In this document: positions 4,342 through 54,288 of the stretch, one piece after another
How positions within the stretch are numbered: position 1 is the first letter of the stretch
How the letters are laid out: each line of letters begins with the position of its first letter
Origin: Pseudomonadota bacterium
Lineage (GTDB): Bacteria > Pseudomonadota > Gammaproteobacteria > Burkholderiales > Rhodocyclaceae
NCBI GenBank assembly: GCA_018261895.1
Contig: JAGTRT010000008.1
Span: 22,598-86,597 of the forward strand
Length of the DNA: 64,000 nucleotides
Reading direction: 5' to 3'
Position numbers and translations under genes: made by a program
Notes under the pieces: model-generated
Databases searched by the model: none
The model's input: the letters and a program-made list of their open reading frames with translations, nothing else
Told to the model about the DNA's origin: nothing

Positions 4342-5811
4342 ATGAGCCAAATAAAACGTATCCAGCATTTCATCGGCGGCGAATTCGTCGCCGCACCCGA
4401 TGCCCGCTATTTCGACAAGCGTTCGCCCGTCGATGGCAGCGTAATTGCCCACATCGCCGAAGCCAGCGCGGCCGAGGTCAATGCCGCCGTGCAGGCGGCC
4501 CGTACCGCACTGAAAGGCGAATGGGGCAAGCTGAGCACCGACCAGCGCGTCGACCTGCTCTACGGCGTCGCCAACGAGATCACTCGCCGCTTCGATGATT
4601 TCGTGGCGGCCGAAATGGCTGACACCGGCCAGCCGTCGCATGTCCAGACGCATGTCTTCATCCCGCGCGGGGCGGCCAACTTCAAGGTGTTTGCCGACGT
4701 CATCAAGAACGTCGCGGCCGAATCCTTCCGCATGGCCACGCCGGACGGCAGAGGCGCGCTGAACTACGCGATCCGCAACCCCAAGGGCGTGATCGGTGTG
4801 GTCGCGCCGTGGAACGCGCCCTTCCTGCTCATGACCTGGAAAGTCGGGCCGGCGCTGGCCTGCGGCAATACCGTGGTGGTCAAGCCGTCCGAAGAAACGC
4901 CCCTCACCGCCACGCTGCTCGGCGAGGTAATGAATACGGTGGGCATGCCCAAGGGCGTCTATAACGTGGTCAATGGTTTCGGCCCCGACTCGGCCGGCGA
5001 ATTCCTGACCCGCCACCCCAAGGTCGATGCCATCACCTTCACCGGCGAAACGCGGACCGGCACGGCGATCATGAAAGCCGCCGCAGAAGGCATGCGCGAC
5101 ATCTCCTTCGAGCTGGGTGGCAAGAATGCCGGCATCGTCTTCGCCGACTGCAATTTCGAGGCAGCCATCGACGGCATCTTCCGTTCGGCTTTCCTCAATA
5201 CCGGGCAGGTCTGCCTCGGCACCGAACGCGTCTATGTCGAGCGCCCGATCTTCGAACGCTTCGTCACGGCCCTCAAAGCCAAGGTCGAAGGTGTGCGCTA
5301 CGGCCGGCCGGAAGACCACGCCAGCACCTATGGCCCGCTCATCAGCCAGGAGCACCGCGACAAGGTGCTGTCGTATTACCAGAAGGCGATGGATGAAGGT
5401 GCCACCCTGGTCACCGGCGGTGGCGTGCCCGACATGCCGGCCGATCTGGCCGGCGGCAGCTGGGTTCAGCCGACCATCTGGACAGGCCTGCCGGAAACCG
5501 CCGCTGTCGTGCGCGAGGAGATCTTCGGCCCGTGCTGCCATGTTCGCCCCTTCGACAGCGAAGACGAAGTCATCGAACTGGCCAACGACAACGAATACGG
5601 CCTGGCGACGACGATCTGGACCGAGAACCTGTCGCGTGCCCACCGCGTGGCGGAGCGCGTCGAGGTCGGCGTCACCTGGGTTAACAGCTGGTTCCTGCGC
5701 GACCTGCGCACCCCGTTCGGCGGCTCGAAGCAATCGGGCATCGGCCGCGAGGGCGGCGTGCATTCGCTCGAGTTCTACACCGAAACCCGCAACGTCTGCA
5801 TCAAGCTTTGA
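4342..5811 (+). CDS. dmpC: 2-hydroxymuconic semialdehyde dehydrogenase
   Basis: 489-residue NAD-dependent aldehyde dehydrogenase superfamily member, the normal size for DmpC/XylG. It oxidises the ring-cleavage product to 4-oxalocrotonate, the dehydrogenative branch of the pathway. Visible are the cofactor segment [13 protein letters not shown], the general base Glu in [12 protein letters not shown] and the nucleophile Cys in [12 protein letters not shown], plus the C-terminal [15 protein letters not shown]. The ATG at 4342 ([16 protein letters not shown]) is the family start; the upstream in-frame codons are not conserved. It lies between the catechol dioxygenase and the acetaldehyde dehydrogenase. 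Confidence 0.95.
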
Positions 5812-5827: not shown

Positions 5828-6742
5828 ATGAAAAAAATACGATGTGCCCTGATCGGCTCCGGCAATATCGGCACCGATCTGATCTACAAGATCCAGCGCA
5901 GCCCGGTTCTTGAACCGGTATGGATGGTCGGTATCGATCTCGAGTCCGAAGGCCTGGCCCGTGCCCGCGAGATGGGGCTGAAAACCACGGCGGCTGGCGT
6001 CGATGGCCTGCTGCCGCACGTGCTGGACGACAACATCCAGATCGCCTTCGATGCGACCTCGGCCTACGTCCATGCCGAGAACTCGCGCAAGCTGAACGAA
6101 CTCGGCGTGATGATGATCGACCTGACGCCGGCGGCCATCGGCCCGCTCTGCGTGCCGCCGGTGAATCTGCGCGAGCATGCCGAAAAGGTCGAGATGAACG
6201 TCAACATGATCTCCTGCGCCGGGCAGGCGACGATTCCCATCGTTCATGCCGTGTCGCGCATCCAGCCGGTCGCCTACGGCGAAATCGTCGCCAGCCTGGC
6301 CTCGAAGTCGATTGGCCCGGGCACCCGCGCCAACCTCGACGAATTCACCTACACCACCTCGAACGCCATCGAGGTCGTCGGCGGCGCGCGCAAGGGCAAG
6401 GCGCTGGCCATCATCAACCCGGCCGAGCCGCCGATGATGATGCGCAACACCATCTCCTGCCTGACCGACGAGACGCCCGACGAGCCGCGCATCATCGAAT
6501 CGGTGCTGGCGATGATCAAGGAAGTGCAGAAATACGTGCCCGGCTATCGCCTGGTCAACGGCCCGCTGTTCGACGGCAAGCGCGTCACGGTCTTCATGGA
6601 AGTGGCCGGGCTGGGCGACTACCTGCCGAAATACGCCGGCAACCTGGACATCATGACGGCGGCCGCGACGCGGACCGCCGAGATGTTCGCCGAGGAAATC
6701 CTGGCTGGCAGCATCCAGCTCAAACCCGTGGAGTTCGCATGA
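5828..6742 (+). CDS. dmpF: Acetaldehyde dehydrogenase (acylating)
   Basis: 304 residues, DmpF/MhpF/BphJ type. It converts acetaldehyde, NAD+ and CoA to acetyl-CoA and channels acetaldehyde from its partner aldolase. The N-terminal GSGNIGTDL forms the Rossmann loop, and the catalytic Cys lies in [11 protein letters not shown] at about residue 130. The stop overlaps the ATG of the aldolase gene (ATGA, 6739-6742), as expected for subunits of one bifunctional complex. Confidence 0.96.
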
Positions 6743-7806
6743 TGTCCGACGTCAATCTCAAGGGCCGCAAGGTCATCGTCCACGACATGTGCCTGCGCGA
6801 CGGCATGCACGCCAAGCGCGAGCAAATGTCGGTCGAGCAGATGGTCAAGATCGCCACCGTACTGGACGACGCCGGCGTGCCGTATATCCAGGTCACACAT
6901 GGTGCCGGCCTGGGCGGCAATTCGCTGCAACACGGCTTTGCGCCGCACAGCAACGAGGAATACCTCACGGCCGTCTGCCGCGCGGTCAAGCGCACCAAGG
7001 TCTCGGTCCTGCTGCTGCCCGGCCTGGGCACCATGCGCGAACTGCAATCGGCCTACGACTGCGGCGCGCGCAGCGTGCACGTCGCCACCCACTGCACCGA
7101 GGCCGACACCTCGCCGCAGCACATCGCCTTCGCCCGCAAGCTAGGCATGGACAGCACCGGCTTCCTGATGATGGCCCACCTCAACACGCCAGAAGGCCTC
7201 GCCCAGCAGGGCAAGCTCATGGAATCCTACGGTGCGCAGACGGTGTACATCACCGATTCGGCGGGCTACATGCTGCCGGCCGACGTCAATGCACGGGTCG
7301 GGGCGCTACGCGACGTACTCAGACCGGAAACCGAGATCGGCTTCCACGGCCATCACAACATGGGCATGGGCATCGCCAACTCGATCGCCGCCATCGAGGC
7401 CGGGGCCAGCCGCATCGATGCGTCGGTCGGCGGGCTGGGCGCGGGAGCGGGCAATACGCCGCTCGAAGCCTTCGTCGCCGTGTGCGAACGCATGGGCATC
7501 GAGACAGGTTGCGACCTGTTCAAGCTCATGGACATGGCCGAGGAGATCATTTTCCCGATCATGGACCACATCGTCCGCGTCGACCGCTCGTCGCTGACGC
7601 TGGGCTTCGCCGGCGTCTACTCGACCTTCCTGCTGCACGCCAACCGGGCGGCCGAGCGTTTCGGCATTCCGGCCCGCGACATCCTCGTCGAGCTTGGCCG
7701 CAAGAAGATGATCGGCGGCCAGGAAGACATGATTACCGACACCGCCATGACCATGGCCAAGGAACGTGGTCTGCTCAAGGACGCTGCCGTGGGGGTCCCA
7801 TCATGA
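6739..7806 (+). CDS. dmpG: 4-hydroxy-2-oxovalerate aldolase
   Basis: 355 residues (two ATG codons in tandem at 6739 and 6742). DmpG/BphI-type class II aldolase of the DRE-TIM metallolyase fold: 4-hydroxy-2-oxovalerate to pyruvate and acetaldehyde. Visible are the N-terminal [11 protein letters not shown] metal/catalytic motif, [25 protein letters not shown] and the metal-binding [10 protein letters not shown]. The start overlaps the end of dmpF, and its own stop overlaps the start of the SDR gene by ATGA, so the genes are translationally coupled. Confidence 0.96.
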
Positions 7807-8567
7807 GGCCCTACGCCGAGCGCGAGGCTTGCGCCATCCTCGTCGGAGCGACCGGCGATTTCGGAACGGCGATCACCCGGCGGCTGCTCGACGCCGGCCT
7901 CGGGGTCATCGCTGTCGCCCGGTCGGCCGACAGCCTGCACGGCCTCGCTGCAGCCCAGCCCGGTGTCCGACCGTGTGCGGCGGACATCGCCAGCGACGAC
8001 GCCATCGCCGCCATTGCCGCGACCATCGACAAGCCGGTGCGCATGGTCGTGCACGGCCCGGGCGTCGCCGTTGCCGGCGGCATCCTGACGGCACCGACCG
8101 CCTCCATGGTCGATGCGGTGAATATCAAGGTCGGCGGTCTACTCCGCCTGGTGCGTGCGGCCGATGCCCACCTCGGGGCCGGTTCGCGCATCGTCGCCAT
8201 CGGCGGTCATTACGGTCTGGAACCAACCGCCTATGCGGCAGCCGCCGGCGTGGCCAACGCCGCCATACTCAACGTCGTCCGCCAGCTGAGCATGGCCTAC
8301 GGCCCGCGCGGCATTACCGCCCACACTATCGTGCCCGGCCCAGCCGATACCGACCGCCTGCGCCGGGTTGCCGCGACGCGGGCCGAGCAACGTCAGTGCA
8401 CTGTCGACGAGGTCCTCGACGAGATGCGCGCCGAGTCTTCGCTCGGCATCCTCAGTACCCCGGAACAGATTGCCTGGGCCGTGACCCTGTTGCTCGCCCC
8501 AGAGGCCGATGCGATGACCGGTTCCAGTCTGATGCTCGATGCCGGCCGCCGTCGCGGCCTGCCCTGA
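7803..8567 (+). CDS. SDR-family protein with a degenerate active site
   Basis: 254 residues. The N-terminal [17 protein letters not shown] is a Rossmann nucleotide-binding motif of short-chain dehydrogenase/reductases, and an Asn (VNIKVGG) and Tyr (TAYAAAAG) are in the expected places. The catalytic Ser region reads VAIGGHYG instead of an SS pair, and the YxxxK motif reads YAAAA, so both Ser and Lys of the tetrad are missing. The C-terminal [12 protein letters not shown] is typical of SDRs. It is coupled to dmpG by ATGA, so it belongs to the catechol operon, but classical reductase activity is doubtful. It may bind nucleotide without redox chemistry or use a different mechanism; the role is not known to me. 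Confidence 0.8.
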
Positions 8568-8587
8568 CACCACCAAGGAGAACCCCC

Positions 8588-9022
8588 ATGCCCGTTGCTA
8601 ATCTCCATGTCCTCGCAGGCCATCCGCGCGCAAACCTGAAGCAGTGGATACGCGAGACCTCAAACGCCCTCTCCGAAATTCTTGTCGCCCCAATGGATCG
8701 CCTCGAAGTCTGGGTCACCGAAATCGACCCCGATCTGTGGGGCATCAGCGGCCAGCCAGCCAGCGAGGTTCTGGCTCACACCCCGCGGCATGATGCGGAA
8801 ATGCCCTTCATCAAGATGATCCTGATGGAAGGCCGCAGCGTTGAGCAATTTCACCGCATCATCGTTGAACTCAATGCGATTACCGCGCGGCTGATGGAGG
8901 TCGACCCTGAGCGCATCCGCATCCATATCGAGCATGCCCACCCCGACCGCTGGGGCATTGGCGGCATACCGGCCAGAATCCGCCGGGCAGCCGAGCTTGC
9001 AGCGCCTTCCGCACAACCTTAA
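8588..9022 (+). CDS. Fused two-domain 4-oxalocrotonate tautomerase-like protein
   Basis: 144 residues made of two tandem tautomerase-like units. The first begins MPVANLHVLAGHP (Pro as the potential N-terminal catalytic base). The second begins inside the chain at MPFIKMILMEGRSVEQ near residue 74, a typical 4-OT start. Both units end in a related WGI-containing segment (DPDLWGISG and HPDRWGIGG). 4-OT converts 2-hydroxymuconate to 2-oxo-3-hexenedioate, which fits the dmpC product, so it probably stands in for dmpI here. AAGGAG precedes the ATG. It is last in the operon; in the fused form only the first proline can act as a free N-terminus. Confidence 0.8.
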   Translation: MPVANLHVLAGHPRANLKQWIRETSNALSEILVAPMDRLEVWVTEIDPDLWGISGQPASEVLAHTPRHDAEMPFIKMILMEGRSVEQFHRIIVELNAITARLMEVDPERIRIHIEHAHPDRWGIGGIPARIRRAAELAAPSAQP

Positions 9023-9105
9023 TCCGATAGCTACTGAAGCAGTCCTTCTCCTGTCCAAATTTTCTCCGCGGAACGGAAGAAACCCAAGGCAGGACACCAC
9101 AACAA

Positions 9106-9138
9106 AAAACCCGCCAAGCTTTGCGCTGAGCGGGTTTT
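9106..9138. terminator. Bidirectional intrinsic terminator
   Basis: AAAACCCGC (9106-9114) pairs with GCGGGTTTT (9130-9138). Read on the minus strand the hairpin ends in a T-rich run directly after the tRNA-Val 3' part; read on the plus strand it closes the meta-cleavage operon. Confidence 0.75.
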
Positions 9139-9152
9139 CAGTTTCTCTGATT

Positions 9153-9202
9153 TGGTGGGCGGTACTGGGATCGAACCAGTGACCCCTGCCGTGTGAAGGC
9201 AG
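9153..9202 (-). pseudogene. tRNA-Val(CAC), 3' fragment split off by prophage
   Basis: The minus strand reads an anticodon arm (CTGCC, TTCACAC, GGCAG), variable loop GGGTC, T arm ACTGG-TTCGATC-CCAGT, acceptor 3' strand ACCGCCC and ACCA. The acceptor and D-arm 5' half is missing; it is found at 45090-45131, where GGGCGGT pairs exactly with ACCGCCC. Joining the two gives a normal 75-nt tRNA-Val with anticodon CAC. The flanking phage DNA does not restore a 5' half here, so this piece cannot fold as a tRNA. Confidence 0.9.
9186..9202. repeat. Prophage attachment site attL (17-bp core)
   Basis: CTGCCGTGTGAAGGCAG is exactly repeated at 45090-45106. The core is the anticodon stem-loop of tRNA-Val and is itself an inverted repeat (CTGCC/GGCAG). 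It marks the left prophage border. Confidence 0.9.
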
Positions 9203-9281
9203 ATGACGGCCATTGGCAGCGCGGATAACCCGCATAAATACGTGGCCTGACGGTCAGCAATGGGCCGTGGCGTGGTGTAAT

Positions 9282-9428
9282 TTACACCAGAATTACACCG
9301 GCCATGATCTGGAAATTGCCAGACATACGCCACCACTCAGCGGCGGCCCTACTCTGCGCAAGCCACAGCCTGACGATGGGCGGGTGGGAGGCTTTCCATT
9401 CGGCGAGGACAATCACTTTGGCAGGCAT
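9282..9428 (-). CDS. Small phage protein of unknown function
   Basis: 48 residues starting MPAKVIVLAEWKASHP. I chose the ATG at 9428 because GGGAG precedes it; an upstream in-frame start at 9497 lacks a site. The C-terminal half is hydrophobic with several Trp. It overlaps the end of the preceding gene in another frame and is the last gene before attL. No family recognised. Confidence 0.45.
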   Translation of the reverse strand: MPAKVIVLAEWKASHPPIVRLWLAQSRAAAEWWRMSGNFQIMAGVILV

Positions 9429-9750
9429 ATCCACTCCCTGAATACAGATCGGCCAGGGCTTCGGCCTTGGTTTCAAAACGGCGCACGGCGACGACACGGA
9501 AGTGCCAGACGCGGTATTTTCCGTCGAATAGGATCAGCTTGTTTCGACGTGTCCAGAGTTCTCGTTTCGGCGGCACGAGCTCGATCGCGCGGGCGAATCG
9601 CCACGAAAGTGGCTGGCCAACGCCGAAATGCGGGATGACGCCACGGAACGAGTGGGAACGCGTCAGGCCTATCCAGATGCGGCCTCGGCTGGATATCCAT
9701 ATCCAGATCGCCGCGATGAGGCAGTTAGAGAGGCGATTCAGCTTTTTCAT
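9349..9750 (-). CDS. Phage protein of unknown function with N-terminal hydrophobic helix
   Basis: 133 residues. The N-terminus MKKLNRLSNCLIAAIWIWIS looks like a signal anchor, followed by a basic and aromatic stretch (LWTRRNKLILFDGKYRVWHFRVVAVRR would be a small beta-rich segment; only its start LWTRRNKLILF is stressed here). AGAAGG precedes the ATG, which lies within the end of the upstream gene. It sits at the end of the lysis cassette, so a membrane or superinfection role is possible but not shown. Confidence 0.55.
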   Translation of the reverse strand: MKKLNRLSNCLIAAIWIWISSRGRIWIGLTRSHSFRGVIPHFGVGQPLSWRFARAIELVPPKRELWTRRNKLILFDGKYRVWHFRVVAVRRFETKAEALADLYSGSGYACQSDCPRRMESLPPAHRQAVACAE

Positions 9751-9994
9751 TCAGGGCCTTCTCAAGGTCGGCGATTCGCTGTTTGAGCTCGAGCACGCGG
9801 CCTGGATGCGCGACGCCGAAATCTTCCATGTCGGCGATTACCCTTTCGCCTGCTCGTGCGCGGGTGCGCCAGTATTCGAACGACTCGCGGTAGATCAGGC
9901 GCCTATTGCTGCCCGCCAAAGATCGAGGCACGGCAACGGTAGTAAATACCCGATACGCTCGCCAGTTTTTCGACAGTGGCGCCAAAGCTGTCAT
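9725..9994 (-). CDS. Phage protein of unknown function, lysis cassette
   Basis: 89 residues with a C-terminal amphipathic helix (ELKQRIADLEKALNEKAE), likely coiled coil. The ATG at 9994 overlaps the stop of the Rz-like gene (ATGA at 9991-9994), which argues for a real, translationally coupled gene although no ribosome site is visible. It overlaps the o-spanin gene in another frame. No function recognised. Confidence 0.6.
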   Translation of the reverse strand: MTALAPLSKNWRAYRVFTTVAVPRSLAGSNRRLIYRESFEYWRTRARAGERVIADMEDFGVAHPGRVLELKQRIADLEKALNEKAESPL

Positions 9995-10160
9995 CGCGTA
10001 ACGGACCCAGTGTTTCCGGGCAGCTTGCCACCGTCAGGGGCGACGGCTCTGTTTTCGAGGGCGGCATTAAGCTGCTGCAGGCCGTCAGGAGAATGGCGGC
10101 AATCCCGATAGACAGGGACTTCGCGCGTTTCGCGCTCGATGCGCTGTTGCAGGGTGACAT
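9903..10160 (-). CDS. Rz1-like o-spanin lipoprotein
   Basis: 85 residues: basic start, hydrophobic stretch SIGIAAILLTA and lipobox LLTACSS at about residues 25-30, then a Pro-rich tail. This is the pattern of Rz1, the outer-membrane lipoprotein that with Rz bridges the envelope and disrupts the outer membrane in the last lysis step. It starts inside the Rz gene in another frame, as in lambda, but extends past it. GGAGA precedes the ATG. Confidence 0.85.
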   Translation of the reverse strand: MSPCNSASSAKRAKSLSIGIAAILLTACSSLMPPSKTEPSPLTVASCPETLGPLRDDSFGATVEKLASVSGIYYRCRASIFGGQQ

Positions 10161-10368
10161 GTTTTATCTCCAATTTGGCGATCTCCTTGGCCGCGCCTTC
10201 CTGAGCCGCGGCGATGGCCTTGTCGACCAGGGCGGCATCGCGCAGTTGCGAGGCCTCCTGCAGCGCGCGGCCGTCGTGCCGTCCCCAGGAATAACAGCCG
10301 ACCAGGGCGGCGACCAGGACAAGCCATTTGATTTCGGACCAGATCGTGGAGGGCTTCTGCAGCATCAT
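9991..10368 (-). CDS. Rz-like i-spanin
   Basis: 125 residues. One N-terminal transmembrane helix (IKWLVLVAALVGCYSWG) is followed by a long helical periplasmic part (coiled-coil-like LVDKAIAAAQEGAAKEIAKL), the i-spanin layout. The ATG at 10368 overlaps the endolysin stop (ATGA) and was chosen over a longer out-of-context extension. It embeds the start of the o-spanin gene. Confidence 0.85.
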   Translation of the reverse strand: MMLQKPSTIWSEIKWLVLVAALVGCYSWGRHDGRALQEASQLRDAALVDKAIAAAQEGAAKEIAKLEIKHVTLQQRIERETREVPVYRDCRHSPDGLQQLNAALENRAVAPDGGKLPGNTGSVTR

Positions 10369-10853
10369 GCCTCTCGTACCGAAAGCGGTGCGTTGGTTGA
10401 CATGACCAGCAGGCCCTGCGGTATGGGCAGAGACAGCCCGGGCGGCCAGTAATAGCCGACGACCCGCGACCGGTCGAATGGCGCGATGCTGACCTTGTTG
10501 CCCTGGTTTCCCCCGAGCACCATCAAATGACCGGCCGCCGTGCGACCGACGACGAAGCCGACATGGCCACCGCCCTGGCGTTCGAACACGACCACGCAGC
10601 CGGTCGCCGGGGAGTCGAGACGTGTGCCCCAGCCTGCCCAAGCCTTGGCGCGCATCCAGAATTTCGGGATGGGATGGCCAGTCTCGCTCAGGCAATGCGC
10701 GACAAATGCGCCACACCAGGGCGTTTCATCATCACGCCACCAGGCCGACAGCTTATCGAGCCAGCCGAGGATGATCGAGTTGTGGCTGGCGCCGGGAAAT
10801 TCGGTTAGGTCGATATAGCGGCGGGCTTCAGCGATCCAGGGGAGATCGGTCAC
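10365..10853 (-). CDS. Endolysin, NlpC/P60-CHAP-like peptidase (TIGR02594 type)
   Basis: 162 residues with a GTG start. The cysteine peptidase motif TPWCGAFVAHCL (Cys near residue 47) and the His in GGGHVGFVVG fit the TIGR02594 family of phage lysis enzymes that cut peptidoglycan peptide bonds. There is no signal peptide, so it needs the holin to reach the periplasm. GTGA overlap with the small membrane protein upstream and ATGA overlap with Rz downstream place it at the centre of the lysis cassette. Confidence 0.85.
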   Translation of the reverse strand: MTDLPWIAEARRYIDLTEFPGASHNSIILGWLDKLSAWWRDDETPWCGAFVAHCLSETGHPIPKFWMRAKAWAGWGTRLDSPATGCVVVFERQGGGHVGFVVGRTAAGHLMVLGGNQGNKVSIAPFDRSRVVGYYWPPGLSLPIPQGLLVMSTNAPLSVREA

Positions 10854-10960
10854 TGGATGTCCTCCGGCAGCTTTACGGTGCCATGCTTGTGCTTAGAAAC
10901 GCTCCATGACCCGACAAGCGCACACCCGACGCCAATAATGATCACGATGACCGTCTCCAT
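10850..10960 (-). CDS. 36-residue single-helix membrane protein in lysis cassette
   Basis: Too short for usual gene callers. METVIVIIIGVGCALVGSW is one transmembrane helix, followed by a short basic-polar tail. The ATG overlaps the holin stop (TGATG at 10958-10962) and its own stop overlaps the endolysin GTG (GTGA), so coupling on both sides supports reality. It could be an antiholin, second holin or regulator; this is inferred from position only. Confidence 0.65.
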   Translation of the reverse strand: METVIVIIIGVGCALVGSWSVSKHKHGTVKLPEDIQ

Positions 10961-11259
10961 CACGCCGATCTCCCCTGGATGATGCGCTGGAACATGCGCT
11001 CAAGACCCGACGTGCCAAGGCTGGCCAGCGCGGCGGCGACGCCGACCTGGCCGATGATCGGCAAGTCTGGAACCCAGACCAGCACCGCGCCGGCCGCCAT
11101 CGCTATGCCGCCCGTGCAGAGCGAGCGGCCGATGATGATGCGAGGCGTCATTGCTTCGCCACTGGCGAGCAACTGACCTATGCCGATGCTGATGCCGACG
11201 AACGCGAATAGCGCTGTCGTGGCGATCTGCTCCCACCAGTGAATCAGTTTTTCAGACAC
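10960..11259 (-). CDS. Phage holin
   Basis: 99 residues, with hydrophobic segments around residues 13-32 (IATTALFAFVGISIGIGQLL), 46-65 and 68-85 and a basic C-terminus, consistent with a class I holin of the Phage_holin_3 type. It makes the membrane lesion that releases the endolysin. First gene of the lysis block, directly before the 36-aa membrane gene. Confidence 0.8.
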   Translation of the reverse strand: MSEKLIHWWEQIATTALFAFVGISIGIGQLLASGEAMTPRIIIGRSLCTGGIAMAAGAVLVWVPDLPIIGQVGVAAALASLGTSGLERMFQRIIQGRSA

Positions 11260-11268
11260 GGACTCCCC

Positions 11269-11496
11269 CTAATCTCGCCAGGGCGGCGGAAAAATAACGT
11301 CGGGCACGGCGGTCGACACCTGGGTCGAGACGGCGCCGTCTTGGTAGATGTACCCGGAGAACCCGGGCGAATTGAGCAGGGTCGCCGCGTCGGCCGGGTA
11401 AATCGTCACGGCGCCGGGCGGCACCGCGGATTCGGCGTCGTCGTACAGCCCGGTGATGCTGTGGCCGTCGACGTTGATCGTGATGTGATAGGCCAT
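11269..11496 (-). CDS. Small phage protein of unknown function
   Basis: 75 residues, MAYHITINVDGHSITGLYDD and onward, beta-rich and acidic without membrane segments. The start codon abuts the end of the tail fibre gene (11496). Such small proteins after fibre genes are often fibre assembly or host-range accessories, but nothing in the sequence proves it. Confidence 0.6.
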   Translation of the reverse strand: MAYHITINVDGHSITGLYDDAESAVPPGAVTIYPADAATLLNSPGFSGYIYQDGAVSTQVSTAVPDVIFPPPWRD

Positions 11497-34631: not shown

Positions 34632-35063
34632 ATGGAAAAGACATACGAAATGCGCCGCCAACACCTAAAAACCCTCGTTGACAAACTGGGGAGAGGAGGT
34701 ATTGCCGCCGTCGCCAAAAAGATCGATGTCAATGCGAGCTACCTGTCACGCTGCCTATATCCGCCAGAAAAAGCCGGACGGAAAAATATCGGCGACGAGA
34801 TCGCTACCAGGCTGGACGAGCATTTCCCGTCGTGGAAAGGCGCCTCAATAACCTCGTTGCATAGTCCAGCCGCCGCCTACTCCGTCGAACCCACACGGGA
34901 CAGCATTTCACCCGCCGCCGTAATGTTCGGCCATGTGTTCGACAAGCTGAGCCCTGCAGACCAGTTCGACCTTTGGGTTGATCTGAAAAAACGGGTAATG
35001 AACTACCCGGAGGTAGAGCGGGAATACTTAGCCGATATCGTGAAATATTTAACACTAATCTGA
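34632..35063 (+). CDS. CI-like phage repressor without peptidase domain
   Basis: 143 residues. An N-terminal helix-turn-helix (GIAAVAKKIDVNASYLSR) is followed by a C-terminal helical part, with no S24/LexA-type Ser-Lys protease motifs. Therefore RecA-stimulated self-cleavage is not expected; induction must use another route. Divergent from the Cro-like gene over operators O1/O2 and upstream of the second operator pair, this is the best candidate for the prophage repressor. Cro and CI roles could be swapped; layout favours this reading. Confidence 0.7.
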   Translation: MEKTYEMRRQHLKTLVDKLGRGGIAAVAKKIDVNASYLSRCLYPPEKAGRKNIGDEIATRLDEHFPSWKGASITSLHSPAAAYSVEPTRDSISPAAVMFGHVFDKLSPADQFDLWVDLKKRVMNYPEVEREYLADIVKYLTLI

Positions 35064-38237: not shown

Positions 38238-38600
38238 ATGCAACAACTCACACTACCCCCGCTCGCCGAAGGCGAGACCTACATCGGCGCGATCGGTGAC
38301 GCATCAGGAAATCTGCATCACGTCATCCTGCTGCCCGGCGACAACGACGAAGCCACCCACGAAGCCGCACTCGAATGGGCCAAGAGCATCGGCGGCGACC
38401 TGCCCACCCGCATCGAGCAGGCCATGCTCTGGGCAAACCACCGCGACCTGTTCCAGAAGGACTGGTACTGGAGCAACGAAATCCACCACCGCGAGTCAGG
38501 CTGGGCCTGGTATCAGGACTTCGACATCGGCGGCCAGAACCACCACGGCTACCGCAGCTACGGGTTGCGCGCTCGTGCCGTCCGCAGATTGCCCATTTAA
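38238..38600 (+). CDS. DGR target protein 1 (DUF1566/C-type-lectin-like)
   Basis: 120 residues. GDLPTRIEQAMLWANHRDLF and the closing WAWYQDF...LRARAVRRL have the look of DUF1566/Lcl_C-type C-type lectin folds, the usual scaffold of DGR-diversified proteins. The last 33 codons are variable repeat VR1 (38492-38591), with hypervariable residues after WYQ. AGGTGA precedes the ATG. No signal peptide or membrane segment. Diversified residues form a ligand-binding face in known CLec targets; ligand unknown here. Confidence 0.88.
   Translation: MQQLTLPPLAEGETYIGAIGDASGNLHHVILLPGDNDEATHEAALEWAKSIGGDLPTRIEQAMLWANHRDLFQKDWYWSNEIHHRESGWAWYQDFDIGGQNHHGYRSYGLRARAVRRLPI
38492..38591 (+). repeat. DGR variable repeat VR1
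   Basis: 100 bp. Compared with the template (39635-39732), all 12 substitutions fall on template adenines within AAC codons, and there is one extra codon in the run of tandem AAC codons. Flanks CGAGTCAGGCTGGGCCTGG and GGGTTGCGCGCTCGTGCCGT are identical to the template; the latter end should act as the homing-initiation (IMH) side. Confidence 0.95.
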
Positions 38601-38624
38601 TCATTCATCCATTTCGAGACCGTC

Positions 38625-39098
38625 ATGACCACCATTACGCTTGATGAAATCAAGGCCCAGCATGCCAAAGTGGCCGAAATGATCACTGCCTTTGAGCTGC
38701 AGCAGGCACCATCTGCCATGTTCATCCCCGAGGCCACCATCAGCCTTTCCCCGGGCGAACACTACGCCGGCCTCGTTCTCGGCAAAGACGGAGAGCCGAG
38801 CTATCACCTGGTGCTGCTCCCCGGCCAGGCCGACGACATCACCTGGGAAAAGGCCGAAGAATGGGCCGCCAAACAGGGCGGAAAACACACATCCAGCCTG
38901 CCCACCCGCCGCGAGCAGTCGCTGCTCTTCGCCAACCTCAAGGAAGAATTCGAGGAGCGCGCCTACTGGTCATGCGAGGCTCACGAAAGCGAGTCAGGCT
39001 GGGCCTGGTATCAGGACTTCTGCTACGGCCTCCAGTACGGCATCAACCGCGACCACGGGTTGCGCGCTCGTGCCGTCCGCAGATTGGTCATTGAGTAA
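38625..39098 (+). CDS. DGR target protein 2 (DUF1566/C-type-lectin-like)
   Basis: 157 residues, a paralogue of target 1 with a longer helical N-terminus (ITLDEIKAQHAKVAEMITAF). The shared core is LPTRREQSLLFANLKEEFEE and the C-terminal SGWAWYQDF and LRARAVRRL; VR2 (38990-39087) encodes its C-terminus. 24 nt downstream of target 1. No export signal. Two adjacent targets sharing one template suggests duplication followed by independent diversification. Confidence 0.88.
   Translation: MTTITLDEIKAQHAKVAEMITAFELQQAPSAMFIPEATISLSPGEHYAGLVLGKDGEPSYHLVLLPGQADDITWEKAEEWAAKQGGKHTSSLPTRREQSLLFANLKEEFEERAYWSCEAHESESGWAWYQDFCYGLQYGINRDHGLRARAVRRLVIE
38990..39087 (+). repeat. DGR variable repeat VR2
   Basis: 98 bp, same length as the template. 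It shows 12 substitutions, all at template adenines, none at C, G or T. Nine of the ten AAC codons are changed. Ends are identical to the template including GCAGATTGG. Confidence 0.96.
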
Positions 39099-39116
39099 TT
39101 TATCAATTTAATCAGC

Positions 39117-39491
39117 ATGGCCACCCACACCCATCTTCCCATTTACAAGGTCGCCTACGACCTGCTCGATGTCGTCACGAATCTCGTCAAGAACATGCAA
39201 CGTGATTTCAAGCGTTCCATCGGGGATAAGATCAGCGCCGAGTGCATTGAGATCACGGTGCTGATCTTCCGGGCCAATGTCGCCCAGGACAAGGCACCGC
39301 ACCTGCTGGAACTGATCGAGCGCCTGCAAGTCGCCGAACTGATGCTTCGTTTGTCCATGGACAAACGCCTCATCTCCAAGGCGGCCTACGCTCAGGCAAT
39401 CGAACTCACCACCAGCATCGGGAAGCAGGCCAACGGGTGGCGCCGCGCCGCACATCGCCCGCTTCATGGAGGTCAAGGCCGCCATGACTGA
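39117..39491 (+). CDS. avd: DGR accessory variability determinant (Avd-like)
   Basis: 124 residues, four-helix-bundle pattern: IYKVAYDLLDVVTNLVKNM, ECIEITVLIFRANVAQD, LLELIERLQVAELMLRLSMD and LISKAAYAQAIELTTSIGKQ, then GW. This matches bAvd proteins (pentameric, basic, binds RT and template RNA). It lies between the targets and the template, the standard place. The ribosome site is weak. Confidence 0.85.
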   Translation: MATHTHLPIYKVAYDLLDVVTNLVKNMQRDFKRSIGDKISAECIEITVLIFRANVAQDKAPHLLELIERLQVAELMLRLSMDKRLISKAAYAQAIELTTSIGKQANGWRRAAHRPLHGGQGRHD

Positions 39492-39634
39492 GCGATCATT
39501 CAATCTGGTCGTGCCGCTGGCTCACAAGGCCACCGACATGCGCACCACGGACACCGCCGGCAGCATGCCGGGCCGGTCCGGCGCAGTTTCCAGGCTGAAC
39601 ACTCGGCCGGGCGACGTGGAAAGCACGATGGGTA

Positions 39635-39732
39635 CGAGTCAGGCTGGGCCTGGTATCAGAACTTCAACAACGGCAACCAGAACAACAACAACCGCAACAA
39701 CGGGTTGCGCGCTCGTGCCGTCCGCAGATTGG
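39635..39732 (+). repeat. DGR template repeat (TR)
   Basis: 98 bp containing ten AAC codons in the variable window (adenine-rich, NNC outcomes avoid stop codons). Identical to VR2 except at adenines. It lies between avd and the RT, and partly overlaps the probable RT start. Transcribed on the plus strand, it is the RNA that is reverse transcribed with errors at A. Confidence 0.96.
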
Positions 39733-40836
39733 AAAGCGCCCGCTGATTTCACCTTCGCAGAGCTTGCGCAAGCCTATTTCGATTGCCGCCGCACCAAGCG
39801 CAACAGCGCCAGCGCGCTGGCCTTCGAAGAGCGCCTTGAGCACAACCTGCGCACCCTCTACGACGAACTGCACGCAGGCACCTACACGCCCGGAAGCAGC
39901 ATCTGCTTCGCCATCACCCGCCCAAAGCCCCGCGAAGTGTGGGCAGCGACGTTCCGCGACCGCATCGTGCATCTCCTGCTGCACAACCGAATCGGCCCGC
40001 GCTTCTACGCCCGATTCATCGCCGACTCCTGCGCCTGCATCCCGGGCCGTGGAACCCTCTATGGCGCCGAACGACTCGAGGCCAAGGTACGCAGTATCAC
40101 CCAGAACTGGACGCGGCCAGCCTATTACCTGAAGCTCGATCTGGCCAACTTCTTCGTCAGCATCGACAAACGCATCCTGCACCGCCTGCTCGCCCGCCGC
40201 ATCAACGAGCCATGGTGGCTGACGCTGACCGAAACCATCCTTTTCCACGACCCGCGCCAGAACTACACCCTGCGTGGCAACCCGGCCGACCTCGAGCGCG
40301 TCCAGCCACACAAGCGCCTGACCAGCCAGCCCGCACACCTTGGCCTGCCAATAGGCAACCTCAGCAGCCAGTTTTTCGCCAACGTCTATTTGGACGTATT
40401 AGACCAATTTGCGAAGCACTATTTGCACGCCAAGCACTACATCCGCTACGTCGACGACTTCGTGCTCCTGCACGAATCCGCCCAATGGCTCAACGACGCC
40501 AAGGACCAGACCGAACACCTGCTCGCCACCCAACTGGCCGCCAGAATCAACCCGAGCAAGACCATCCTGCAACCCATCGACCGCGGCATCGACTTTGTCG
40601 GCCATGTCATCAAGCCACACCGCCGGACGCTGCGCCGCAGGACATTCAACGACGCCCTGCACCGCCTCAAAACCATTCCCGAAACCGACCTTTTCGAGAC
40701 CGGAAACAGCTACTTCGGCCTGCTACGACAAGCCACCCACAGCCACCACGACCGCGCCCAGATCGCCAACATCCTGCGCAGCCGTGGCCACAGCATCAAA
40801 TCAGACCTGACTAAAACATATAGGAAATCAGCATGA
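39715..40836 (+). CDS. DGR reverse transcriptase
   Basis: 373 residues if started at GTG 39715; ATG 39628 would put the whole template in the coding frame, so the start is unsure. RT motifs: YYLKLDLANFFVSID (motif with the first Asp), IGNLSSQ at 213-219, the DGR-typical (I/L)GxxxSQ signature, and RYVDDFVLL with YVDD at 245-248. Followed by GIDFVGHVIKPHRRTLRRR, a thumb-like basic region. It copies the TR RNA with adenine-specific errors to renew VR1 and VR2. ATGA overlap with the next gene. Confidence 0.93.
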   Translation: MPSADWKAPADFTFAELAQAYFDCRRTKRNSASALAFEERLEHNLRTLYDELHAGTYTPGSSICFAITRPKPREVWAATFRDRIVHLLLHNRIGPRFYARFIADSCACIPGRGTLYGAERLEAKVRSITQNWTRPAYYLKLDLANFFVSIDKRILHRLLARRINEPWWLTLTETILFHDPRQNYTLRGNPADLERVQPHKRLTSQPAHLGLPIGNLSSQFFANVYLDVLDQFAKHYLHAKHYIRYVDDFVLLHESAQWLNDAKDQTEHLLATQLAARINPSKTILQPIDRGIDFVGHVIKPHRRTLRRRTFNDALHRLKTIPETDLFETGNSYFGLLRQATHSHHDRAQIANILRSRGHSIKSDLTKTYRKSA

Positions 40837-43419: not shown

Positions 43420-43685
43420 GCGACATGACCAGACAACAGCTTTGTGCCGCTCTAGGCATATCCGAATCGACCGTGCGGCGTCTTGAACAATTCGGCATGC
43501 CGTTTACTCCGGTTGGCATTCGCTCAAAACGCTACAATCTCGACGAGTGTAAAAACTGGCTGAGAGAAAACCAATGTCAATTTGGACAGACGAACAAGGC
43601 CGCACCCACGTCGGCATCATGGTCAGCGGCAAACGCATTCACCGACGCTTGCCGGAAGGTACATCTAAGAGTGATGCCAAGCTGA
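43416..43685 (+). CDS. Excisionase-like small HTH protein
   Basis: 89 residues. MTRQQLCAALGISESTVRRL is a MerR/Xis-type winged helix, followed by GIRSKRYNLDECKNWL, as in HTH_17 excisionases. It overlaps the integrase start in another frame, the usual Xis-Int pairing. It would bend the att DNA and favour excision. Confidence 0.72.
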   Translation: MSDMTRQQLCAALGISESTVRRLEQFGMPFTPVGIRSKRYNLDECKNWLRENQCQFGQTNKAAPTSASWSAANAFTDACRKVHLRVMPS

Positions 43686-44524
43686 TCGAGGCCAATCTAA
43701 GAAAAGCTGCAGGACGAAAGCAGACACACATCCCGGGCGACCCATCGCTAACCGAAATAATGGGCCTGTACATCGCGCATGCCGACACGCTGCGCAGCCC
43801 AGAAACAGCAAAGCACCACGCCTTACGTGCCGGACCTTGGTGCGAGGGAAAAAAGGCCAGCGAAGCCGATCTCGTTGTCGCCAAAATGATCGACGACATG
43901 CGAGGACACTACGCGCCAGCGACCATAAATCGCAGCATCGGCGCCATCAAGGCAGCACTCAAAATCGCATTCCGGCAGCGGATTATCTCCGAAGACATCG
44001 CCGCCAGAATATCCAGGCTGCCAGAGAACAACCAGCGACATACCTACCTCAGCGTCGAGCAGGTTAAAAAGCTGTCAGATCACTGCAGCGAGCAGGTCAG
44101 AGCCGCGGTATGGATCGCCCTTTTAACCGGATGCCGGCGCGGCGAAATCCTCGGGCTAGAAAAAGAAGACATCAAAGGAAACTACCTTTGCATTCTTGCC
44201 GGGAACACAAAGACACTACGCCAGCGAAGCGTTCCAATTGTCCCGGCACTGCGGCCGTGGCTCGAATACATCCCGCTCAAAATCAACTTCGAGGGGCTGA
44301 AAACGGGATTTGGACGAGCACGGAAAAAAGCCGGAATCGAAGCCAACTTCCACGACCTGCGCCATAGCTGCGCCAGCCTGCTGATCAACATGGGGACACC
44401 ACTCGAAGTGGTCAGGGACATCCTAGGCCACACGACCGTCAAGACGACCGAGCGATATGCACACCTGCACGTCGATCGACAGGCCGAGGCGCTGGATAAA
44501 CTATCAATGGCCGTGCTTGGATGA
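43574..44524 (+). CDS. int: Prophage tyrosine integrase
   Basis: 316 residues with the tyrosine recombinase catalytic set: Arg in LLTGCRRGEILGL (near 190), HDLRHS (near 260), LGHTTVKTTERYAHL with His and the Tyr nucleophile. The N-terminal SAM-like domain spans about residues 60-150. It lies about 570 bp from attR and recombines the 17-bp core in the tRNA-Val anticodon arm. Confidence 0.95.
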   Translation: MSIWTDEQGRTHVGIMVSGKRIHRRLPEGTSKSDAKLIEANLRKAAGRKQTHIPGDPSLTEIMGLYIAHADTLRSPETAKHHALRAGPWCEGKKASEADLVVAKMIDDMRGHYAPATINRSIGAIKAALKIAFRQRIISEDIAARISRLPENNQRHTYLSVEQVKKLSDHCSEQVRAAVWIALLTGCRRGEILGLEKEDIKGNYLCILAGNTKTLRQRSVPIVPALRPWLEYIPLKINFEGLKTGFGRARKKAGIEANFHDLRHSCASLLINMGTPLEVVRDILGHTTVKTTERYAHLHVDRQAEALDKLSMAVLG

Positions 44525-44946: not shown

Positions 44947-45021
44947 TGGTGCGAAGTGCTGGCTTCGAACCAGCGACCCCCTGCGTGTGAAGCAGGTGCT
45001 CTACCCCTGAGCTAACCTCGC
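44947..45021 (-). tRNA. Phage-borne tRNA-Val(CAC)
   Basis: Complete cloverleaf on the minus strand: acceptor GCGAGGT/ACTTCGC (one G-T pair), D arm GCTC-AGGGGTA-GAGC, anticodon arm CCTGC-TTCACAC-GCAGG, T arm GCTGG-TTCGAAG-CCAGC, encoded CCA. Anticodon CAC reads GUG (Val). It is inside the prophage, 68 bp from attR, and is different enough from the split host gene to be a separate lineage. It can replace the host tRNA that integration destroys. Confidence 0.9.
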
Positions 45022-46685: not shown

Positions 46686-46758
<73 letters not shown>

Positions 46759-46760
46759 CC

Positions 46761-46817
46761 CTAGGACACCGCCCTTTCACGGCGGTAACCGGGGTTCGAA
46801 TCCCCGTGGGGACGCCA
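46761..46817 (+). pseudogene. tRNA-Glu, 5'-truncated copy
   Basis: Reads from CTAGGACACCGCCC to the encoded CCA, identical to the intact copy at 47107-47182, but the acceptor 5' strand and first half of the D arm are missing. The 52-bp deletion has CC at both breakpoints (tRNA-Ala CC end and tRNA-Glu GGCC). It cannot fold. Confidence 0.88.
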
Positions 46818-46833
46818 AGGTTTTAGCAGTATT

Positions 46834-46910
46834 GGAGTGGTAGTTCAGTTGGTTAGAATACCGGCCTGTCACGCCGGGGGTCGCGGGTTCGAGTCCCGTC
46901 CACTCCGCCA
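46834..46910 (+). tRNA. tRNA-Asp(GTC), copy 1
   Basis: GGAGTGG/CCACTCC acceptor, anticodon arm CCGGC-CTGTCAC-GCCGG, T arm GCGGG-TTCGAGT-CCCGT, CCA encoded. Identical to copy 2. Confidence 0.96.
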
Positions 46911-46920
46911 ACATTCAAGA

Positions 46921-46945
46921 AAACCGGACCCGTCCGGTTTTTTTT
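46921..46945 (+). terminator. Terminator of first tRNA unit
   Basis: AACCGGAC-CC-GTCCGGTT followed by a T run on the plus strand. Confidence 0.85.
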
Positions 46946-46999
46946 CGGGTAAGAGGCAATAGCCTCGAATCCAACAAGTTCGGCTTGTCTCTCGACTGT

Positions 47000-47075
<76 letters not shown>

Positions 47076-47106
47076 AGCGCCGAACGAGGTAGTCAGTTTT
47101 GTCCGG

Positions 47107-47182
47107 GTCCCCATCGTCTAGAGGCCTAGGACACCGCCCTTTCACGGCGGTAACCGGGGTTCGAATCCCCGTGGGGACGCCA
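47107..47182 (+). tRNA. tRNA-Glu(TTC)
   Basis: Complete: acceptor GTCCCCA/GGGGACG (allowing a terminal mismatch), anticodon arm CCGCC-CTTTCAC-GGCGG, T arm GGGGT-TCGAATC-CCCGT, encoded CCA. The only intact tRNA-Glu in the window. Confidence 0.95.
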
Positions 47183-47194
47183 AGCTTTAAGCGC

Positions 47195-47271
47195 GGAGTG
47201 GTAGTTCAGTTGGTTAGAATACCGGCCTGTCACGCCGGGGGTCGCGGGTTCGAGTCCCGTCCACTCCGCCA
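47195..47271 (+). tRNA. tRNA-Asp(GTC), copy 2
   Basis: Same sequence as copy 1 including the following AACATTCAA, showing that the unit was duplicated. Confidence 0.96.
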
Positions 47272-54153: not shown

Positions 54154-54207
54154 GTTCCTATCCTTCACAGTGATTGCTGTAAAGGAGGACGCCGTCAGCG
54201 TTTCGCT

Positions 54208-54278
54208 GGCAACCCCGCTACCGTAGCTTTCGTCTGTAGGCCGGAGGCTTTGCGTCCCCACTTTTCAATGGGTTTGCC
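54208..54278 (-). ncRNA. Cyclic-di-GMP-I (GEMM-I) riboswitch
   Basis: On the minus strand: P1 GGCAA/TTGCC closes the aptamer; then ACCCATTGAAAAGTGGGG (GAAA tetraloop arm), the invariant GACGCAAAGCCTCCGGCCTA, and the second arm ending GGTAGCGGGG. All conserved GEMM-I blocks known from Vc2 are present in order. It senses the second messenger c-di-GMP and controls the transcript toward 53948. Expression platform not obvious; a short hairpin AGCGAAACGCT follows P1. Confidence 0.93.
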
Positions 54279-54288
54279 AATAATTAAT

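Follow-up and report, generated by a model that had tools for sequence, protein, structure and literature searches.

For the diversity-generating retroelement (DGR) of BPP-1, the spacer 3′ of the template repeat (TR) is described in PMC12875486 as folding, recruiting bRT-Avd and priming cDNA synthesis. A DGR of the BPP-1 type in Bordetella phage vB_BbrP_003 (L095) has a gene for a reverse transcriptase (RT), a small gene (avd) upstream of the TR, the Rfam RNA Phage_DGR 3′ of the TR (the TR ends at 4817 and the RNA occupies 4822-4954) and a stem-loop after the variable repeat (VR), and the TR/VR changes lie mostly at A (18 of 22). A second set of described systems is found in the isolated phages Magia (L072), QDWS, Cruim01, Haboob, LPPA56 and phPA-G, which share an early-region layout of two short targets, avd, the Rfam RNA RT-15, TR and RT. 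A potential DGR and its short target genes have already been pointed out in the paper on Burkholderia phage Magia, which in its accessible part does not tie RT-15 to the DGR template, and the Cruim01 record already bears an RT-15 annotation. Here we describe a DGR of the same layout, its RT approximately 63-69% identical to those of the six phages, at positions 38238 to 40836 of a 64,000-nucleotide stretch of contig JAGTRT010000008.1 from a Rhodocyclaceae bacterium (GCA_018261895.1); this whole stretch is referred to below as the window. The locus resembles that of vB_BbrP_003 in its RT, its upstream avd gene and its adenine-biased changes, but differs in having RT-15 5′ of the TR, no spacer after the TR, and octamers after the VRs.

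The original prediction for this DNA was that the early region of a prophage holds a DGR that diversifies two targets. That identification stands, but the account was incomplete, having missed RT-15, the octamer arrays, the absence of a 3′ spacer and the fact that the TR sits within the RT open frame. The locus is a DGR by each defining feature open to test, whereas it departs from the BPP-1 layout on two, the TR-RT spacer and the stem-loop after the VR. We read it as an early-region prophage DGR with two predicted C-type-lectin genes and a probable inverted template RNA, in which a predicted docking domain, RT-15, lies 5′ of the template; we assign this reading a probability of roughly 0.75.

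Template and variable repeats

The TR (98 nt, 39635-39732, plus strand) is the template of both VRs and lies inside the RT open frame. Re-comparison bore out its predicted coordinates together with those of VR2 (38990-39087) and VR1 (38492-38591), both also on the plus strand. VR2 differs from the TR at 12 sites, all of them at template A as predicted (27 A in 98 nt; chance 2e-8), and has no change at any other base. VR1 differs at 10 sites, again all at template A, and contains 3 extra nucleotides, equivalent to one more codon in an AAC run; the predicted restriction to adenine therefore holds for VR1 but the predicted count of 12 does not, since changes in the extra codon had been counted as substitutions. 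The claim that no template C, G or T is altered is correct within both repeats, a G>C in the VR1 comparison being the base just beyond VR1. Three matches were found in the genome bin holding the window (3.3 Mb, 85% complete, 93 contigs), namely the TR, VR2 and VR1, and the bin yielded no further TR copy or VR.

For comparison we assembled related loci from viral records (25 with RTs 65-81% identical) and from genomes (four at 65-81%). An RT match of some kind occurs in 32 of 149 genomes, five of them at 65% identity or above with the window's own included, and 110 phage records have an RT match, nine at 60-80% identity. With duplicates taken out, 37 loci were retained for analysis of repeats and octamers and 35 for analysis of RT-15. 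Across 76 TR-VR pairs from 35 loci, kept when they were at least 50 nt long and at least 60% of their changes were at A, 961 of 2221 A sites differ compared with 39 of 5253 other sites.

Some variation in repeat length and number was observed. Indels in or near the AAC run occur in four of the 76 pairs (L016, 4745-4844; L034, 5251-5350; L018, 2628-2727; and 38492-38591 in the window), and those in L016 (2 nt) and L034 (1 nt) put the end of the target out of frame, as if slippage in copying occasionally breaks a target. Elsewhere a single TR serves three to five VRs, some of them several kb away (L033, 1-3046; L019, 511-5326; L032, 2057-5319; L014, 2907-5354).

The RT-15 RNA

The sequence at 39453-39635 on the plus strand matches Rfam family RT-15 (RF03018) over the full model (1-192) with 178.5 bits against a gathering score of 82; it overlaps the end of avd and ends at the TR start. 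The Rfam description line for this family does not mention DGRs, whereas here the 3′ end of the RNA is tied to the start of the TR, TR/VR homology beginning 1-14 nt before the RT-15 end in 35 of 35 loci. Submission of 43 related loci to Rfam returned RT-15 in all 38 with a close RT and in none of the five with a distant RT, and among the 149 relative genomes the five that score above the cut-off are the same five that possess close RTs. An RNA-first search of 399 genomes of the order gave nine matches above the cut-off, three already known and six new. All six new loci are complete DGRs, with avd, an RT 61-72% identical and a TR at the 3′ end of the RNA (starting 0-4 nt ahead of the RNA end), and 172 of the 175 changes in their 13 VRs are at A. 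Seven matches from the 149- and 399-genome searches were below threshold; of three inspected, two have neither RT nor avd and one is a decayed DGR (G043).

The consensus fold of RT-15 over 35 loci comprises 48 pairs, with 96.7% of cells paired compared with 25-43% when slid, and two-sided changes are present at 27 of the 48 pairs compared with 10.2 in shuffles. The possibility that RT-15 is merely RT-coding sequence is not supported, as its length varies between loci by non-multiples of 3 and the RT frame contains stops in 10 of 35 loci; over this stretch the RT frame is open in the other 25 loci and the remaining frames in 0 of 35.

The decayed relative in G043 (L089, minus strand, approximately 6123-11492) retains an avd-like open reading frame (ORF), three matches to targets, and an RT-15 that is shortened and scores below the cut-off (69.9 bits). 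Its TR end motif is confined to the three VRs, and an RT match is not listed; its third target has an N-terminal extension that appears P-loop-like by eye.

Comparison of DGR layouts

In the 35 loci the distance from the avd stop to the TR is 130-174 nt and that from the TR to the RT domain is -6 to +15 nt, the TR-RT spacer in the window being 0 nt. The converse arrangement is found in six of seven contrast DGRs, in which the small upstream gene ends 0-34 nt before the TR and the RT domain follows 120-182 nt after the TR end. In three of the seven this small gene is named Avd, accessory variability determinant or four-helix bundle. Two contrast DGRs (the BPP-1 relative and BalMu-1) have an Rfam RNA 3′ of the TR, and the other five are without an Rfam match. 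A structured TR-RT spacer of the BPP-1 type is absent from the window locus, and no synonymous constraint was detected at the 5′ end of the RT gene. A 3′ RNA element hidden in the RT coding sequence was rejected as a candidate, synonymous entropy not being lowered there (0.78 for codons 1-20 and 0.64 for codons 21-40; 0.56-0.80 in other blocks). Bacteroides phage F4 (L096, 4713-4971), which has an RT approximately 34% identical and no Rfam match, has 128 nt before the TR and 21 nt after it, and may share the inverted layout.

The link between RT-15 and DGRs, the inverted layout and the octamer array described below were not found in the searchable literature, and earlier mention in subscription papers or in the source paper of the RT-n RNAs is possible. 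The RT-n RNAs reportedly come from a 2017 paper.

Octamer arrays downstream of the variable repeats

The VRs are followed by an AT-rich array with a period of 8 (about ATTYARYM, repeated 2.5 times) that runs in and past the stop codon. In the window these arrays lie on the plus strand at 38595-38614, 3′ of VR1, and at 39090-39109, 3′ of VR2, each overlapping the stop codon of its target. At period 8 the mean self-match reaches 0.54 downstream of VRs and 0.22 downstream of TRs. A strict octamer pattern is present at 46 of 79 VRs, at none of 37 TRs and nowhere else in 775,788 strand-bases. With a leave-one-locus-out matrix, 75 of the 79 VRs outscore every other site in their own locus, and a loose pattern was found at 10 of the 13 VRs in the six new loci. 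This loose pattern matches twice in the window, both times at VR ends, and 7 times in the 3.3-Mb bin, including those two. A stricter version gave no match in five records, for which it was too strict. Within 80 nt of VR1 or VR2 the window contains no perfect stem of at least 7, whereas a stem-loop follows five of seven contrast VRs.

Reverse transcriptase, Avd and target proteins

The RT open frame (39466-40836, plus strand) has its RT domain from about 39751, and its translation contains the IGNLSSQ and YVDD motifs from which a DGR-type RT was originally predicted. This assignment is upheld by matches to RVT_1 (Pfam), to PHROG 1423 and, as the best chain by sequence, to 8ub7 ‘Reverse transcriptase’ (E 5e-32). 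The avd gene (39117-39491, plus strand, 124 residues) matches Pfam bAvd (43.7 bits, cut-off 40) and PHROG 3206 (‘Avd protein of DGR’). Sequence searches for a solved relative of Avd gave nothing convincing (best E 0.61). The predicted order of target 1, target 2, avd, TR and RT was likewise confirmed, and both targets, avd and RT are open. The alignment with 8ub7 begins at residue 96 of the RT ORF and residue 14 of the chain, and no in-frame ATG, GTG or TTG occurs within 120 nt 3′ of the TR in the window. The likely start of the RT, judged from the sequence, is the GTG at 39715, inside the TR, which fits the start of the 8ub7 alignment. The RT frame is free of stops from the TR start to the RT domain in 33 of 35 loci, but this proves little since all three frames are open there in 25 of the 35.

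Target 1 (38238-38600, plus strand, 120 residues) and target 2 (38625-39098, plus strand, 157 residues) carry VR1 and VR2, respectively, at their C-terminal ends. They had been predicted to be DUF1566 proteins, DUF1566 being an older name for Lcl_C. Their Lcl_C matches are below the Pfam cut-off (17.5 bits for target 1 and 22.1 bits for target 2 against 34.9). For target 2, the one that was folded, the predicted structure (mean predicted local distance difference test score, pLDDT, 91.7) comprises an N-terminal helix and a domain that is C-type-lectin-like by its nearest solved folds. These are the C-terminal domains of Legionella Lcl (8q4e, 23% identity) and Bdellovibrio Bd2740 (8oks, 6%), which, to judge from their residue numbers, are parts of larger bacterial proteins, in contrast to the 157-residue phage protein.

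An alignment of 117 target 2 sequences of 150-166 residues, including that of the window and taken from 120 listed of 1076 homologues, shows that the ten residues templated by AAC are the ten most variable of the 157. Mean entropy is 3.20 bits at these positions, compared with 0.44 for the remaining 22 residues of the VR and 0.63 for the 125 residues outside it, and 99.7% of residues at AAC-templated sites are reachable from AAC by A changes alone, compared with 73% in the rest. The targets are likely to be soluble early phage proteins whose variable face would bind a changing partner from the host or a rival phage.

Prophage setting

The minus strand of the window encodes phage head, packaging and tail genes and a primase/helicase, with a CII-like regulator at 33.6-34.1 kb. 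The DGR lies inside a plus-strand region bounded on the left by a repressor-like transcriptional regulator (34632-35063; PHROG 5736, 41.2 bits) and on the right by a tyrosine integrase (43574-44524; Phage_integrase in Pfam, PHROG 1). The predicted early-region placement is thus correct for the window and is repeated in isolated relatives, the DGR lying among repressor, recombination, methylase or integrase genes in six of six annotated cases (a seventh record is unannotated there). No attachment repeat was found, the stretch at 43.5-48 kb sharing matches of only 16-17 nt with the left 30 kb of the window, and promoter and terminator scans gave no excess over shuffles. A minus-strand tRNA just past the integrase (44950-45021) is a possible integration site, though no attachment repeat accompanies it. 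Five clustered tRNA genes are located to the right of the prophage (46686-47268), and a c-di-GMP-I riboswitch (72.5 bits) is present on the minus strand at 54205-54288.

Distribution and recent activity

The cassette is recorded from phages or prophages of Burkholderia, Paraburkholderia, Herbaspirillum, Dechloromonas, Pseudomonas and Shewanella. Among closely related pairs, L036 and L037, viral records that share one IMG genome number, differ at 32 of 66 A-templated VR sites compared with 0 of 143 other VR sites; their TRs are identical (0 of 108) and the 8 differences among 2775 sites elsewhere all fall within 93 nt of the RT gene. Haboob and phPA-G differ at 25 of 67 A-templated VR sites, 0 of 142 other VR sites, 0 of 106 TR sites and 66 of 2761 sites elsewhere, and the corresponding figures for Magia and QDWS are 23 of 54, 0 of 127, 1 of 91 and 406 of 2688. 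The picture is less clear-cut in two looser pairs: L036 and L074 differ at 32 of 66 A-templated and 1 of 143 other VR sites, and L024 and L029 at 32 of 64 A-templated VR sites, 11 of 153 other VR sites and 8 of 111 TR sites. Because the VR differences between L036 and L037 are A-restricted and relatives of target 2 vary chiefly at AAC-templated residues, the family appears to be active now or to have been so until recently. No near-identical copy of the window DGR itself was found.

Two peculiarities of the records were noted. L071 (Pseudomonas proteolytica, 3328 bases) has the VR1 of L036 and the VR2 of L037; as it may be an assembly mix of the two, it was not used as independent evidence of activity. 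OK094664.1 (Shewanella phage QDWS) and OP650936.1 (‘Hujiaoplasma phage zrk29-1’) agree both in length (47,902) and in their match scores, and one of the two host labels may be wrong.

Proposed mechanism and alternative explanations

In the mechanism that we propose, a transcript spanning RT-15, TR and RT would use RT-15 to bind Avd and RT. In copying the TR, the RT would make errors at A and would halt at the RT-15 closing stem, thereby fixing the 5′ edge of the TR, and the resulting cDNA would replace the VR, the octamer array marking the VR as recipient and sparing the TR. More tentatively, and with a likelihood that we place slightly on the doubtful side of even, these loci would constitute an inverted-template class of DGR in which RT-15 serves 5′ of the template for docking and stopping, translation of the RT begins within the template and recipients are tagged by octamers, and with which temperate phages evolve soluble early recognition proteins that serve as a mutable weapon or shield in conflicts with hosts or other phages, not as tail adhesin.

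Several observations weigh against the proposed reading. The RT-15 and TR of the window together fold no more stably than shuffles (z -0.33), and the case for structure therefore rests on covariation. In L043, whose RT is 49% identical, the gap between TR and RT is short and repeats resembling the octamers are present, but a search at E up to 1 gave no RT-15. The start of the RT is not firmly placed, the usual start codon after the TR being missing in some relatives (e.g. L034). The octamer pattern was drawn after the loci had been viewed, so that the leave-one-out matrix and the six new loci provide the fairer figures; even by that matrix only 37 of the 79 VRs exceed the best other site in any locus. 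Of the 79 family VRs, 9 have a stem-loop within 80 nt, where 1.0 would be expected. A weak periodic signal is also present after the VR in contrast phages (0.34 at period 8 and 0.38 at period 7), so the octamer array may be a pronounced version of a general feature.

RT-15 could instead be a cis-regulatory leader for translation of the RT, in which case the DGR would work in the BPP-1 manner and the RT coding sequence would conceal a 3′ docking element. The location of RT-15 immediately 5′ of the RT domain, its overlap with the end of avd and the stop-free RT frame noted above would suit such a role. However, synonymous entropy at RT codons 1-40 is within the range of other blocks, with no hidden element visible, and a translation switch would not require the 3′ end of RT-15 to track the TR start as it does in every locus of the 35; we regard this explanation as distinctly unlikely. 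A role as virion adhesins like those of tail-fibre DGRs, with genes that happen to lie in the early region, would suit the C-type-lectin-like fold predicted for target 2, and many viral DGR targets are tail proteins according to PMC8144416 (section 9). Both targets, however, are in the repressor-to-integrase region, which runs rightward and opposite in strand to the head and tail genes, and the annotated isolated relatives repeat this early placement whereas annotated contrast DGRs lie by tail or lysis genes, so that an adhesin role seems unlikely, if somewhat less so than the leader. It is very unlikely that the window copy is a dead remnant. Such a view could draw on the lack of a near-identical copy showing recent change and on the decay known in the genus from G043, which yielded no TR copy and is without a listed RT match, but both targets, avd and RT are open in the window and neither VR has accumulated a single non-A change.

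Implications

On the reading of the locus as a DGR with an inverted template RNA, an Rfam RNA without an assigned role gains a likely job. The comparison with BPP-1-type elements suggests that the parts of DGRs are modular, the folded RNA being placed on either side of the template and the recipient being marked by a tandem repeat or by a stem-loop. How a DGR distinguishes its template from its targets, and where its cDNA starts and stops, thereby become testable, and the recurrence of this cassette shows that DGR targets also exist outside tail genes.

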